This document shows positions 2,482 to 62,868 of a stretch of DNA of 64,000 bases, in pieces. This DNA comes from Terriglobia bacterium (GTDB lineage Bacteria; Acidobacteriota; Terriglobia; JAJPHL01): NCBI GenBank assembly GCA_021325275.1, contig JAJPHL010000023.1, positions 1-64,000 of the forward strand. The letters run 5' to 3'. Below the pieces are notes generated by a model that saw nothing but the letters and a program-made list of their open reading frames with translations, did no database searches and was not told the DNA's origin. A program made the translations under genes and the position numbers. Every line of letters begins with the position of its first letter. Positions within the stretch are counted from its first letter, which is position 1.

Positions 2482-3750
2482 TTACTTCGCGTGTGCGGCA
2501 CAATTCGGATCGGCAATTTCCACGCGACGATTCTTCGCGCGGCCGACGTCGGTGGCGTTTTCTGCGATCGGCTTGGTCTTGCCAAAGCCTTTGTCGGTCA
2601 GGCGGTCGCCGGCGATCGCATGCTGCGTGAGCCAAGCGACAATCGCCTTGGCGCGCGCTTCCGACAGCGTCTGGTTGTAGGCATCGCCGCCCACATTGTC
2701 GGTGTGTCCCTGAATCTCGATCTTCTGCGTGGGATTCTTTTGCAACAGATCCAGAATCTGCTGCAACACCGGATCGCTGGCGGGTTGCAGCGTCGACTTG
2801 TTGAAGTCGAACAGGACCCCATAGATGGCGACATGGCAGTTGGTCTTCAAATCGCTGCACATGCCTTTGTTGACGGCCCCGGCGTCGGCGACACGAATGT
2901 CGTAGGTGTCATTCTTGTGCAGATACGCCCAAAGATTACGGCCATTCCCAGTGAAATGCGCCGAGATGGCGACATCTGCGCCCATGCTTTCATTGACGAT
3001 GGTCCAGCCCGCCGCGGTCAGGGCGTCGTGATACGCGATGCGGAAGAGCGAATTCGAGAGTCCATCGGGCGGTGGGTAGTAGGCCTTGATGATCGAGCCG
3101 GAAGCAACGAGCTCGGGTTCACTTGCGCCCTTGATCGAAACATTGAAGGGCGCGGTGTCCGGTGCGCTGCTTCTGAATTTGGAACCCGGCAAGGGGCCCA
3201 GCCAGGGAAAATCGCCCGCGGCAGGGTTCACCGGTTCGGGAGTTGCGGCGGGAGCCTTGAGCGCGAACTGGAAAGGCATGGGAGCGATCTCAACGATCTC
3301 GACGGAGGCGCGTTCCGGCTCGCCGGGGCTGGCATCGGCCCATGCCTCGACTCCGTCTTTCTGGTAGTGAAGCAACATTTGGATTCCGCCCCCTGACCAC
3401 TCATGCACGGCGGTCCATCCGTTGGCGAGGAAGGCCGGCTTGACAATCGCCCAAATGGCGTCTGCCGTCTTGGCGCCGGTAACGATGACGGGAAACTGCC
3501 AATGTTTTCCGCGCGCCACCTTGCCGACGCCGCCCATTCCGCGATTCCCCTGCGGGACCTGCAATTCGGTCCAGGGTTCGTAGGTGATGCGGTACGGCTT
3601 GCCAATCTTATTCAGGAAGGTGAGCTCGGCCGGGAGCGGCGGCTCCTGCGCCAGGAGCGGAAGAGTGGTGAAGGCAAGCAATGCGGGAATGGCCGCGAAA
3701 CGCAAGGGGAACGCGACTGCCCCAAAAAGCGTACCAACAAGTGGGCGCAT
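2482..3750 (-). CDS. OmpA-family peptidoglycan-associated outer membrane protein
   Basis: A 422-residue exported protein with a signal peptide (about residues 1-34, ending LLAQ). Residues ~35-300 are an uncharacterised region. The C-terminal ~115 residues are an OmpA-like domain: GVLFDFNKSTLQPAS, the diagnostic IEIQGHTDNVGG, NQTLSEARAKAIVAWL and AKNRRVEI. In the family this domain holds the meso-DAP of peptidoglycan through Asp and Arg residues, both of which are present (GHTD, NRRVE). The protein probably anchors or senses the cell wall from the outer membrane or periplasm. It ends in a Cys-containing tail. The following gene on the same strand is another secreted protein, suggesting a two-gene envelope operon. 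Confidence 0.88.
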   Translation of the reverse strand: MRPLVGTLFGAVAFPLRFAAIPALLAFTTLPLLAQEPPLPAELTFLNKIGKPYRITYEPWTELQVPQGNRGMGGVGKVARGKHWQFPVIVTGAKTADAIWAIVKPAFLANGWTAVHEWSGGGIQMLLHYQKDGVEAWADASPGEPERASVEIVEIAPMPFQFALKAPAATPEPVNPAAGDFPWLGPLPGSKFRSSAPDTAPFNVSIKGASEPELVASGSIIKAYYPPPDGLSNSLFRIAYHDALTAAGWTIVNESMGADVAISAHFTGNGRNLWAYLHKNDTYDIRVADAGAVNKGMCSDLKTNCHVAIYGVLFDFNKSTLQPASDPVLQQILDLLQKNPTQKIEIQGHTDNVGGDAYNQTLSEARAKAIVAWLTQHAIAGDRLTDKGFGKTKPIAENATDVGRAKNRRVEIADPNCAAHAK

Positions 3751-3817
3751 ATTTGCCTAGTGACGCTGGCAGCGTATCATACAATTCCTCCCGACTTGCC
3801 AGGCCTGCACAAGCTGG

Positions 3818-4066
3818 TAGTGTCCTAATGGTGCGTTGGTCTACGGGAGAGTCGCCAGCCCCGAAGGGCGATTCATTTCAGCCCAGGCTGAGCCGGAGCG
3901 TTTCTTGCTCCGGCGTAGGCCTGGGACCCATGTGTGAAGGAAAGAGCCCTGAAAGGGCGATCCAAGAAATTTCGATTCGCGATCGCCCGTGATTTCTTAG
4001 GCCGCACCTTCAGTGCTCGGTCACATTTTCGTTTCCTAACAGAGCAACGCCCTCTTAGGACACCAC
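3818..4066. repeat. possible MITE with short inverted ends and an internal hairpin
   Basis: This gene-free stretch (3751-4240) lies between divergent genes. It carries gtgtcctaa near 3820-3828 and the inverted ttaggacac at 4055-4063, bounding about 245 bp. Inside, 3954-4008 can fold into a long imperfect hairpin built on aagaaatttcgattcgc and gatcgcccgtgatttctta. No transposase is encoded. Matched ends plus an internal palindrome suggest a non-autonomous element, but the ends are only about 9-11 bp and could be chance. Confidence 0.45.
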
Positions 4067-18795: not shown

Positions 18796-18807
18796 GCGGC
18801 TATGATT

Positions 18808-18945
18808 CCACAGATTTCGTCCGCAGATTCAAAAACCGTCCACAGATTTCACGGATGACACAGATTGGGGACGAGTTCCGAGATCTTAATCTGTGCAATC
18901 TGTGTAATCTGTGGATGGTCTTATCCGTGGCCCTGAATCTGTGGA
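18808..18945. repeat. ATCTGTG/CACAGAT repeat cluster
   Basis: The region holds several copies of ccacagatt and its inverse aatctgtgg, spaced by 8-20 bases, arranged as an inverted cluster (ccacagattt ... cacagattgg ... aatctgtgcaatctgtgt ... aatctgtgg). It lies between the MBL-hydrolase start and the OppF-type gene and includes the last codons of the latter. A second cluster of the same family is at 61673-61823. Confidence 0.75.
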
Positions 18946-20735: not shown

Positions 20736-23156
20736 ATGGTCGACGCCTTCCTGCAAGACTTGCGCTACACGTTCCGCACCCTTGGCCGCACGCCCAGCTT
20801 TACGGTTTTCGCGATTCTCATCGCGGGGCTCGGCATTGGCGCGAGTTCCACGGTGTTCAGCTTGGTGAATGCCGTTTTGCTGCGGCCGCTTCCGTTCCGC
20901 GATCCCGCGCGACTCGCTTGGATCGCCAATCACGATTCGAGCGGGCTTTCGGGACAAACCACGCAAGTGGGCGCGATGATCGATGTGCTGGCGCGGAACA
21001 AATCGTACGAAGACATCGCGGCGTATTTTGCGTTTTACGGCGTGGGCGACATCAATCTCACCGGGCAGGGCGAACCGGAACGCATGAGCGGCGTGCCGGT
21101 GTCGCAGAATTTTTTTCCGCTGCTCGGCGTGAGTCCGATGCTGGGACGAAACTTCACGCCCGAAGAATGCGTGTTCAACGGACCGCATGTGGTGATGCTC
21201 GGTTACGGCGTGTGGCAGCGCCGCTTCGCGTCCGACCCCTCGATCGTGGGACACACGCTCACGATGAACGACACGCCCACCACGGTCGTCGGCGTGCTGC
21301 CTCCGTGGTTCGATTTCGCGGGCGTCTTCGCGCCGGGTAGCCGCATCGACTTGTTCACGCCGTTTCCGCTGACGGCCGAAACGAATCGCTGGGGCAACAC
21401 GTTGGCGATGGTCGGCCGCTTGAAGCCGGGCGCGACCGCGGAATCCGCGCAGGCCGAGATGACGGTTCTCGGCCAGGAAATCACCGCCGCGCATCCCGAG
21501 CGCAATCAGTTTGAAGGACGCGTCAGCATGCTTTCCGAGCATATTGGCGGACGCATTCGTCCGGCGCTGTTCGTGCTGGCGGGCGCGGTGGGCGTGGTGA
21601 TGTTGATTGTCTGCGCGAATCTCTCGAATCTGCTGCTGGGCCGCACCGCCGCGCGGCAAAAGGAGATTGCGGTGCGCACGGCTTTGGGCGCGGGACGCGG
21701 CCGGCTGATCCGCCAACTTCTCACCGAAAGCGTGACGCTTTCGTTTTGCGGCGCGGCGTTTGGATTGCTCCTGGCCTTCGCGGGCACGCGCGCGCTTTCG
21801 CACCTGCAAGCATTCAACATTGCGCTGCTCGGCAACGTGCGCACCGACCCGATGAGTCTTGTGTTCACGGTGGGCATCGCGCTGGTCACGGGACTACTCT
21901 TCGGACTCGCGCCGGCGATCCAAGTGCCGGCGTCGGCGCTGCACGACGCGCTGAAGGAATCGGGACGCGGCACCTCCGGCTCGCGGAAAACCGGATGGAT
22001 GCGCAATTCGCTGGTCGTCTCCGAAATTGCGTTTGCCTTCGTACTGCTGGTGGGCGCGGGACTGTTGATGCGCAGCTTTCTTCGCGTGCTCGACGTGAAT
22101 TTGGGATTTCAGCCGGAGCGCGCCGCGGCGATGCGCGTGGACCCGAATCGCCGCGGCATGAAACGCGCAGAGCTGAACGCATATTTCGATCACATCTTGC
22201 GTCGCGCGAAGCAGGTTCCCGGCGTCACCGCCGCGGGACTAAGCGACGCGCTACCGCTGGGCCGAAATCGCTCGTGGTCGGTTTTTCCGAAGGGCAAGGT
22301 CTACGAGCGCGGACAGGCCCCCGGCGAGTTCATCCGCGTAGTGACCGACGGATACATCGGCGCCATGGGAATTCCGCTGGTCGCGGGACGCGATTTTTCC
22401 GAGCACGACACACCCGATACCGAAGGCGTGGCGATCATCAACGAGACGATGGCCAAAACGCTCTTCCCCGGCGAGAATCCCATCGGCCAGACGCTGCTGC
22501 GCGCGTGCAACGGCGGTCGCAAGATCGTCGGCGTGGTGGGCGACGTCCGCCATTTGACACTCGAAAAAGGCGCGGGCAATGAGTTGTACTTGCCGATGCG
22601 TCAATGCGGCGATTTCGCGTCGATCGACATGGTGGTGCGCACATCGCAGTCACCGGCGTCGCTCGGGAACTCGCTGCGCTCGGCCCTGCGCGAGATCGAG
22701 CCGTCGCTTTCGGGCAACGACTTTCGCGTGATCCAGGAATTGGTCGACAAATCGGTGTCGCCGCGCAAACTCGTGGTGTACTTACTGGGAGGATTCGCGC
22801 TGTTCGCGTTGTTGCTCGCGTCGCTCGGAATCTACGCCGTGATTTCCTATTCGGTGACGCAGCGCACGCAAGAAATCGGGATTCGCATGGCGCTTGGCGC
22901 CTCGGCGGGACATTTGCAATCGCGGATTCTCTCGGAAACGCTGGCGCTCGCCGGGATTGGCATGGCGATCGGCGCCGGGGCGTCGTGGATGCTGTCGCGA
23001 AGTCTCGAAAGTTTCCTGTACGGGGTGACGAAGACCGATCCCACGACGTATGTCGCGATGCTCACGGTGCTCGTCGCCGTCGCCGCGGCCGCCGGCTACA
23101 TTCCGGCGCGCCGCGCGTCACAGATTGATCCGATGACCGCGCTGCGCGCGGAATAA
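20736..23156 (+). CDS. ADOP-type ABC permease (MacB/FtsX-like)
   Basis: An 806-residue permease of the acidobacterial duplicated orphan permease group. Two repeats of FtsX-like domains are present. The N-terminal DLRYTFRTLGRTPSFTVFA and SSTVFSLVNAVLLRPLPF segments open a MacB-type periplasmic domain (about 50-270), followed by helices around 275-420 (AVGVVMLIVCANLSNLLLGR, KEIAVRTALGAGRGRLIRQL). A second MacB-type domain spans about 450-680, then helices with RTQEIGIRMALGASAGHLQ. No ATPase gene accompanies it, as is usual for orphans. Function is unproven; relatives export macrolides or lipoproteins. Confidence 0.94.
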   Translation: MVDAFLQDLRYTFRTLGRTPSFTVFAILIAGLGIGASSTVFSLVNAVLLRPLPFRDPARLAWIANHDSSGLSGQTTQVGAMIDVLARNKSYEDIAAYFAFYGVGDINLTGQGEPERMSGVPVSQNFFPLLGVSPMLGRNFTPEECVFNGPHVVMLGYGVWQRRFASDPSIVGHTLTMNDTPTTVVGVLPPWFDFAGVFAPGSRIDLFTPFPLTAETNRWGNTLAMVGRLKPGATAESAQAEMTVLGQEITAAHPERNQFEGRVSMLSEHIGGRIRPALFVLAGAVGVVMLIVCANLSNLLLGRTAARQKEIAVRTALGAGRGRLIRQLLTESVTLSFCGAAFGLLLAFAGTRALSHLQAFNIALLGNVRTDPMSLVFTVGIALVTGLLFGLAPAIQVPASALHDALKESGRGTSGSRKTGWMRNSLVVSEIAFAFVLLVGAGLLMRSFLRVLDVNLGFQPERAAAMRVDPNRRGMKRAELNAYFDHILRRAKQVPGVTAAGLSDALPLGRNRSWSVFPKGKVYERGQAPGEFIRVVTDGYIGAMGIPLVAGRDFSEHDTPDTEGVAIINETMAKTLFPGENPIGQTLLRACNGGRKIVGVVGDVRHLTLEKGAGNELYLPMRQCGDFASIDMVVRTSQSPASLGNSLRSALREIEPSLSGNDFRVIQELVDKSVSPRKLVVYLLGGFALFALLLASLGIYAVISYSVTQRTQEIGIRMALGASAGHLQSRILSETLALAGIGMAIGAGASWMLSRSLESFLYGVTKTDPTTYVAMLTVLVAVAAAAGYIPARRASQIDPMTALRAE

Positions 23157-26607: not shown

Positions 26608-26900
26608 TGGGTCCTCTGTGAGTTGTCTATAGCGCTTTCGGTCCGGGATGGATCGCGTTCGTTTTGTGGCGCTTTGTATCATCTTTGTATCAGGGCACGG
26701 CTTCAGCCGTGCCGACCGTCGCGCAAAAAAGAACTGGGCTTTAGCCCCTGCGATTCGCAGGGGCTAAAGCCATGAACTTGAGAGTCAGCGTGCGGCACGG
26801 CTGAAGCCGTGCCCTGATACGAACCAGGCGGGCGCCGGAACTTTCGATTCTTCACCTAAGGACCAAGGATGCTTTAGACAACTCGCCGACAACCCACTAG
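26604..26900. repeat. nested palindromic element with 29-bp imperfect terminal repeats
   Basis: The left arm (26604-26632, starting ctagtgggt and running to gagttgtctatag) and the right arm (26872-26900, ending acaacccactag) are imperfect inverse copies. Inside lies a perfect 27-bp inverted pair, gtatcagggcacggc... at 26687-26713 and its inverse at 26794-26820, and within that a third pair (ggctttagcccctgcg at 26737-26752 and its inverse at 26756-26771). Such concentric palindromes look like a composite of separate repeat families. No protein is coded. The stop of the preceding receptor gene falls in the left arm. Confidence 0.75.
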
Positions 26901-61494: not shown

Positions 61495-61520
61495 TGGCCC
61501 TCGCGAAAGCGCGAGGGCCA
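61495..61520 (-). terminator. rho-independent terminator upstream of lptCA
   Basis: tggccctcgcg pairs with cgcgagggcca around a four-base aaag loop, an 11-bp stem. On the minus strand it is followed by seven T (61488-61494 as A on the plus strand). It ends transcription coming from the DUF1624 direction just before lptCA, or acts as an attenuator in the lptCA leader. The stem and U-run are clear. Confidence 0.85.
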
Positions 61521-61672
61521 ATGAGTGGGGTAGGCTTTTCAAAACCTGAGTCAAGTGACTCGTCCTAGGTAAGAGCAAATCCGGGGCCAAAATATTCCCA
61601 TTTAGAATCAATGTTTTGCGGTGGGCCTGAGACGTTATTACCGTGCAAAAGTTACACAGGAGGCGTGCAAGT

Positions 61673-61823
61673 CCACAGATAGCCCACTAAATCTATCCAC
61701 AGATTGCACAGATTACACAGATTCCGGACTGGGAGGACTGGCAGACACTAGCCTCTCGCGAGCCTCAATCTTAATCTGTGTGAATCTGTGCAATCTGTGG
61801 ATTGTTTTTTCGAATCTGTGGAC
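61673..61823. repeat. second ATCTGTG/CACAGAT repeat cluster
   Basis: Two arms are inverse copies: 61696-61723 (tccacagattgcacagatta and then cacagatt) and 61773-61801, differing by one inserted G. Further copies of ccacagat and atctgtgga stand at both ends. It ends the DUF1624 gene's coding sequence (its last residues NPQIAQIHTD and stop are inside). The same family is at 18808-18945. The gap 61521-61672 before it contains no recognisable gene. Confidence 0.8.
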
Positions 61824-62868
61824 TCAGTCTAACCTTGAGGACCGATAACAGCGTCATCGTCACCGCGATGCCCGCCAAACCCCAGGACGCCGTCGCGAAA
61901 TCGACGCGATGCTTCGGCAGAATCGACAGTCGCCCGTAGACCAACTCGATGTGCACCCAGTAGACCAGCAGCGACGTGGACCCGAGTTGTTCCACAGGAC
62001 TCCACCAACCACCCGGCTTGATGGCGCACCAAGCGTAGCAGCCCCCCAGAATCACCAGCAACAATCCGCATCGCGCCAGAAAAAAGTTGGGACTGGTGAG
62101 CCAATAGTTATACACCGCGTAGAATTGCCCCGGCCCGTGGTCGAGCCACCGCGAAATCGGCACGGCGATCGCGCCCACGGCGGCGAGCGCGGCGATGGCG
62201 CGCCATTCCCGACCATCGCGCCGGGCCCACATCACGATCACGCCCGCGGCGACGCCGAGGAACACGAATCCGCTCCACGGGAAAATCGGAAAAAACCAGC
62301 CGCGCGGCGTGCGATCCACGTGACCGCCGTTGAAGTAGCTGGCGATCCACCACGGCAGCACGCGCAGTTTGTCCGTCGCCCACACCGGAGGCGTGAGCAG
62401 CGCGAACGCCGCGGCGATGCCTGACGCCACCGCGGCGCGCCGCCACACGCCGCGCGCCGCCAGCGGTACGATCGCGGCCATGGCCAGCGACAAGCCGATC
62501 GTGTTCAGGATGTCGACGCGCAACAAGTCGGTCCACGGCGACCATCCCCAACCCATCAGGAACTGCTGCAACCGAAACAGCATGGCCAGCCCGAAAATCT
62601 CCGCGCCGCGCTTGATGAATGCGATCGCAACTTCGCGCTGCGTGGCCCCCTTCGCTTCCATGCGATCGATTCCCAGCGCCACCGCGAATCCCGCGAGAAA
62701 AAGAAAAAGCGGCGCGGGAAATGTCCCGAGAAGCTGCGAGTACATGAACGGCGTGGAACGGCGCGCCTCCTCGGAAAGCCAGGAGTCGTAGGCGTGCGTC
62801 TGAAACATCAAAAGACACGCCAAGCCGCGCATCCAATCGACGTAGGCGAGTCGCGGACGCGCGGGCAC
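61771..62868 (-). CDS. DUF1624/heparan-alpha-glucosaminide acetyltransferase-like membrane protein
   Basis: A 365-residue polytopic membrane protein. The opening, LAYVDWMRGLACLLMFQTHAYDSWL, is the DUF1624/acyltransferase-like entry with a conserved His. There are about ten helices (including LFLFLAGFAVALGI, GFVFLGVAAGVIVMWA and LLVYWVHIELVYG). The family may transfer acyl groups across the membrane, with the His as catalytic residue; that is not shown here. Its last ~15 residues (SPQIRKNNPQIAQIHTD) are encoded by a genomic repeat. It starts 1 bp after the propeller gene's stop. Confidence 0.85.
   Translation of the reverse strand: MPARPRLAYVDWMRGLACLLMFQTHAYDSWLSEEARRSTPFMYSQLLGTFPAPLFLFLAGFAVALGIDRMEAKGATQREVAIAFIKRGAEIFGLAMLFRLQQFLMGWGWSPWTDLLRVDILNTIGLSLAMAAIVPLAARGVWRRAAVASGIAAAFALLTPPVWATDKLRVLPWWIASYFNGGHVDRTPRGWFFPIFPWSGFVFLGVAAGVIVMWARRDGREWRAIAALAAVGAIAVPISRWLDHGPGQFYAVYNYWLTSPNFFLARCGLLLVILGGCYAWCAIKPGGWWSPVEQLGSTSLLVYWVHIELVYGRLSILPKHRVDFATASWGLAGIAVTMTLLSVLKVRLSPQIRKNNPQIAQIHTD

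Follow-up and report, generated by a model that had tools for sequence, protein, structure and literature searches.

Within a 64,000-nucleotide stretch of a contig from a Terriglobia bacterium (the window, meaning the whole stretch that was analysed), two genes end inside copies of one ATCTGTG-rich repeat. A sequence-only reading of the window had proposed that this repeat is a mobile hairpin that either settles at the 3' ends of genes or gives rise to them, and that may also terminate transcription. The locus therefore raises the question of what kind of element supplies these gene ends, how it is placed among genes, and what might move it.

Anatomy of the repeat and the gene ends inside it

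The window contains 18 copies of ATCTGTG, compared with 4.2 expected and at most 11 in 100 shuffles, and 15 of the 18 fall in two clusters (18809-18943 and 61674-61820) that are separated by 42.7 kb. An uptake sequence was rejected because the unit is not scattered singly. Both clusters go beyond tandem repetition alone and are inverted repeats, the second forming a palindrome at 61672-61822 of the form TCCACAGATTnCACAGATTnCACAGATT...inverted (Table 1). The general plan consists of an outer box TCCACAGAT(T/A), a spacer of about 10-20 bases, a three-unit arm ATCCACAGATTnCACAGATTnCACAGATT built of 9-bp units, a loop, the inverted arm, and the inverted outer box, and the aligned ends of the elements read TCCACAG...CTGTGGA. 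Folded as RNA, the 61672-61822 element reaches -73.5 kcal/mol (z = -8.45 against shuffles), and the outer boxes pair with each other. A reading of the outer box as a DnaA box or a ribosome-binding site was unsupported on inspection, and Rfam gave zero matches in the window and at six loci. The window also holds strong inverted repeats outside the ATCTGTG family at 1108-1292 and 26684-26823 (51 nt at 86% and 31 nt at 97% complementary, respectively).

Table 1. Positions in the window of the parts of the palindrome, its second copy, and the neighboring features
Feature	Position	Strand	Remark
Left outer box, TCCACAGATA	61672-61681		Partner is the right outer box
Left arm, ATCCACAGATTGCACAGATTACACAGATT	61695-61723		Three 9-bp units
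Loop, partly self-complementary	61724-61772		Without an ORF; the full-length copy L038 has a GxxExxY gene of ~350 nt at the loop position
Right arm, AATCTGTGTGAATCTGTGCAATCTGTGGAT	61773-61802		Left arm inverted
Right outer box, AATCTGTGGA	61813-61822		
Second window copy of the element	18807-18945		First cluster of the sequence-only reading; contains the stop of the minus-strand ABC ATPase gene
DUF1624 gene	61771-62868	-	Right arm supplies the last ten codons (NPQIAQIHTD) and the stop
Ordinary intrinsic terminator	61495-61520	-	Downstream of both DUF1624 and the element

As the sequence-only reading had stated, the DUF1624 ORF (62868-61771, minus strand) ends within the repeat, reading ...RKNNPQIAQIHTD* with its TAA in the right arm, and a second gene end more than 40 kb away is made by the same repeat, where the minus-strand ABC-transporter ATPase ORF ends in ...STPQIQGHG*. 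Homologues of DUF1624 in the class align to about residue 345-355, beyond which their tails are unrelated and variable, and those examined carry no ATCTGTG-type array within 80 bases of the stop. Because the conserved part ends near residue 350, the homologue tails vary, and such an array is missing after their stops, we regard the DUF1624 tail as a local consequence of the repeat. The element would have landed at the 3' junction of the gene, where its mostly stop-free arm would extend the frame to the TAA of the element, and the altered end of DUF1624 would be a by-product of this landing. That stops fall within the element follows from the tightness of the junctions and from arms largely free of in-frame stops.

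The proposed role in terminating transcription did not hold up. An intrinsic terminator was taken as a GC-rich stem with a U-run behind it on the upstream gene's strand, and the element does not have this combination: no U-run stands behind the 61672-61822 hairpin on the minus strand, and positions 61520-61495, further downstream, form a standard terminator. Element copies are dispensable as terminators, and DUF1624 has an ordinary one. A related explanation is that the palindrome is a regulatory hairpin held in place by selection, either as a bidirectional terminator or as an mRNA-processing site, and is not mobile. Its strong RNA hairpin and the T-run that follows the + strand arm in some genome copies would fit such a role, but the separate terminator of DUF1624 speaks against it, as do the placement and distribution of the copies described below.

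Placement and distribution of the palindrome

The source genome, a 6.86-Mb draft, contains approximately 27 gene-free miniature copies of the element with one shared architecture. All 26 copies analysed lie between protein genes, at 15 tandem, 7 divergent, and 4 convergent junctions, while all junctions of the genome are 65% tandem, 16% divergent, and 18% convergent (genes were called in the source genome with a simple codon-usage gene caller and in other genomes as long ORFs only). With the element removed, the intergenic DNA at these sites has a median of 35 bp. A model that gives every junction an equal chance fits the placement (16% of resamples were as low), and one in which longer intergenic DNA receives proportionally more insertions is excluded (0/5000 resamples). 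A preference for gene 3' ends is not supported by the adjoining gene ends, which number 86 3' versus 73 5' for 87 complete elements from many genomes and 19 3' versus 24 5' in the source genome, together with the 7 of 26 copies between divergent genes. The element favors gene junctions, without a particular liking for 3' ends. The idea that it settles at gene ends is thus retained for junctions in general, where placement is independent of intergenic length, but the claim that it creates or settles at 3' ends in particular is not supported. Random placement relative to gene ends, which the sequence-only reading had named as the outcome that would count against it, was found only in part, as placement is non-random with respect to junctions but indifferent to which gene end adjoins.

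The motif is rare among relatives, with just three of the 299 class genomes containing it, and a scan of named genomes recovered the same palindrome in at least 10 phyla with a patchy distribution. Hosts include Planctomycetota, Verrucomicrobiota, Alphaproteobacteria (Asticcacaulis isolates), Chloroflexota, Holophagae, Bacteroidota, Nitrospira, Gammaproteobacteria, FCPU426, and others. Asticcacaulis AC402 carries two copies between two genes of what we take, by recognition of the sequences, to be the prp operon, and the A. benevestitus junction there is empty and about 20 bp long; A. benevestitus in turn carries a copy one junction further on, where AC402 has an overlapping TAATG. Related elements of AC402 and A. 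biprosthecium that contain a GxxExxY gene (see below) are alike only from TCCACAG to CTGTGGA, and their flanks are unrelated. Inspection of the copies and of the empty prp sites found no constant target-site duplication.

The patchy presence across phyla, the occupied and empty junctions, and the related elements in unrelated flanks argue that the hairpin is probably mobile, as the sequence-only reading had suspected. A non-mobile regulatory hairpin would gain some support from two acidobacterial MAGs whose hairpins at two shared operon junctions belong to different unit families, but empty junctions in a related species, patchiness across phyla, and copies between divergent genes make this explanation very unlikely. 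The junctions in question (L151:1690-2210 and 3650-3900, with their orthologues in L155) pair CACAAAG with CACAGATT and CACAGATT with CACGGAG, suggesting either junction hotspots or the replacement of one family by another.

Other loci, several of which are MAG sequence at contig edges, show further arrangements of these repeats. At L108:2800-3400 in Asticcacaulis AC402, two CACAGATT hairpins are each nested in a larger palindrome built of GTTCGTG units, which form the arms of a different GxxExxY clade. In two Holophagae-like MAGs, TCCACAGATT stands directly 3' of the stop in orthologous thiolase genes (L139:2200-2290 and L164:1592-2068), one copy being a miniature and the other containing GxxExxY. 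A search of open-licence PMC papers found none that contains the repeat string, and a broader string yielded no relevant paper.

A predicted nuclease gene between the arms

When the ORFs close to the repeats were compared all against all, one small ORF family proved to lie exactly between the arms, GxxExxY (TIGR04256, E about 1e-39; PF13366 PDDEXK_3), which occupies this position in Verrucomicrobiales (L122), Holophagaceae (L164), and the source genome (L038). The last of these, at about 20,850-21,390 of G000:C17, is an intact full-length copy whose arms, spacer letters (A,G), and outer boxes are those of the miniatures, and its A,G spacer pair occurs in 17 of 29 miniatures versus 8 of 173 cases elsewhere. 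GxxExxY scored above the cut-off in 25 of 27 element-bearing genomes, 117 of 299 class genomes (39%), and 0 of 14 controls, a comparison that is supporting only because the sets differ in taxonomy. One element-bearing genome, that of A. benevestitus, has no GxxExxY, and one further genome has a weak match only. The D, E, and K of the PD-(D/E)XK motif (D, E-x-K) are invariant in the family, and a search for solved structural relatives found none. GxxExxY is assigned to the PD-(D/E)XK nuclease superfamily, and the prediction of nuclease activity rests on this assignment and on the conserved residues. To our knowledge, neither GxxExxY nor the "four helix bundle protein", both of them common families annotated as hypothetical, has been given a role. 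Among open-licence PMC papers we found none on GxxExxY/PF13366 elements, and an earlier description elsewhere is possible.

Inverted arms were found at 22 of 23 GxxExxY loci in element-bearing genomes, 17 of 23 in the class, and 6 of 7 in the source genome. Pooled, with one duplicate removed, 44 of 52 loci have inverted three-unit arms, compared with 0 of 90 mock genes set at displaced positions in those loci (Fisher p = 7e-29); the remaining 8 loci have no arms at the threshold used, and inverted unit arms were seen at none of 24 DUF1624 genes. Unit spacing is 8-11 bp (mode 9) in 43 of the 44 armed loci, and the window element falls within this range, with three tandem 9-bp units in each of its inverted arms. 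The units themselves vary in sequence (CACAGATTn, CACAAAGn, CACGGAGn, CACCGAGn, CGCCGATnn, CACGAACnn, and others). Because every armed GxxExxY copy in the source genome has its own distinct unit, the arms belong to the protein and not to the host.

Phylogenetic comparison agrees with this. All 12 nucleases with CACAGATT arms, whose hosts belong to many phyla, fall within one group of 16 (support 97/97). On a protein tree built on few columns, arm labels change 4 times compared with 10.6 when shuffled (0/500), and with 17 further proteins they change 3 times compared with 13.5 (0/500), where the label of one added protein, L367, was set less strictly and should probably be grouped with the CGCnGAT units. 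The correlation between arm and protein was reached in 0 of 2000 permutations. These comparisons of arms and proteins show that arm sequence tracks the nuclease clade across phyla, not the host. GxxExxY with CACAGATT arms is carried by A. taihuensis and A. biprosthecium, among others. Pairing each element with a single nuclease is sometimes ambiguous in Asticcacaulis, where the flanking units are not alike or several families lie one inside another.

We consider it likely that the ATCTGTG cluster is an ORF-less miniature of a palindromic mobile element, the full-length form of which carries GxxExxY between inverted three-unit arms. The predicted nuclease would read the tandem units of its own arms, either in double-stranded DNA or in an extruded hairpin or cruciform, and would cut there, leading to copying of the element into gene junctions, and the miniatures would be moved in trans by the same nuclease. 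One alternative is that GxxExxY is mere cargo, with some other enzyme spreading tandem-unit palindromes in whose loops small genes such as GxxExxY and S23p gather. This would explain why the unrelated four-helix S23p is found in loops of this type and why one element-bearing genome has no GxxExxY, and the case for mobility is itself a comparative one. Against it, arm units track the nuclease clade across hosts and unit spacing differs with the cargo (8-11 for GxxExxY versus 7 for S23p), and we regard this alternative as unlikely.

Short interspersed intergenic hairpins would also be expected if a REP-associated tyrosine (Y1, HUH) transposase were mobilizing a repeat of the REP/BIME type, and the source genome has five Y1_Tnp genes. 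None of these loci, however, has the repeat array (AATCTGTG arms), their flanks being other palindromes, one of them GTAG-like, and Y1_Tnp is absent from 4 of 10 element-bearing genomes. A Y1/RAYT partner is mostly refuted by these observations, and we hold such an origin to be extremely improbable. The source genome seems to harbor an independent REP-like system as well, with other palindromes flanking the Y1_Tnp genes at L031, L033, and L034 and a GTAG-like repeat, GTAGCCCACAGCGTnAGCTGTGGG, at L031.

S23p elements and comparison with known systems

A four-helix S23p/IVP gene (TIGR02436) was seen next to a GxxExxY element, and inverted arms were found at 16 of 26 S23p loci versus 0 of 52 displaced controls, the period being strictly 7 bp in 14 of the 16. 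At L363 (region G000:C14:78349-78657), an S23p gene has the 7-bp unit GTTCCGA on its flanks, and the string GAGTTCCGAG also occurs in the loops or flanks of several ATCTGTG elements, for example at window positions 18870-18887, hinting at nesting of both families. A matching layout is known from the intervening sequence of the Coxiella burnetii 23S rRNA, which combines a 28-bp inverted-repeat stem with an S23p ORF preceded by tandem GACAGAT heptamers (PMC4990558). S23p elements would work in a way parallel to that of GxxExxY elements. More tentatively, and with slightly less than even confidence, we propose a pan-bacterial set of selfish palindromes in which the loop protein would read its own arms (8-11-bp units for GxxExxY and 7-bp units for S23p), each nuclease lineage would have its own unit, many ORF-less repeats would be miniatures, and 23S intervening sequences would be a special rRNA case.

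If GxxExxY and S23p are proteins of self-spreading palindromes, both families would gain a testable function. Many interspersed repeats, and odd protein tails such as NPQIAQIHTD, would have a source, and the 23S rRNA intervening sequences would be placed in a larger family. The matched nuclease and unit pairs across phyla would offer a ready set for the study of DNA recognition.

Among known systems, the 23S rRNA intervening sequence of C. burnetii is similarly a small selfish palindrome with a terminal-inverted-repeat stem, a loop ORF, and tandem short repeats (PMC4990558), and its stem and small loop ORF are matched by L038, L164, and L122. Unlike it, the window element lies between protein genes and has 9-bp units, the 26 analysed copies are outside rRNA genes, and the cognate loop ORF is TIGR04256/PF13366 instead of S23p (TIGR02436/PF05635). 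REP/BIME repeats with RAYT, and TIRYT/TIRtrons (PMC3733652, PMC6006769), also pair non-autonomous intergenic hairpins with a full-length form that carries an enzyme gene and the same inverted repeat; the present elements differ from REP/RAYT in having no Y1 transposase and no GTAG/CGTC foot, and instead have tandem-unit arms and a PD-(D/E)XK-family protein. With MITEs they share intergenic insertion and terminal inverted repeats held in common with an ORF-bearing, presumably autonomous relative, but unlike MITEs of DNA transposons, the ORF-bearing copy has no DDE/HUH transposase and no constant target duplication was seen.
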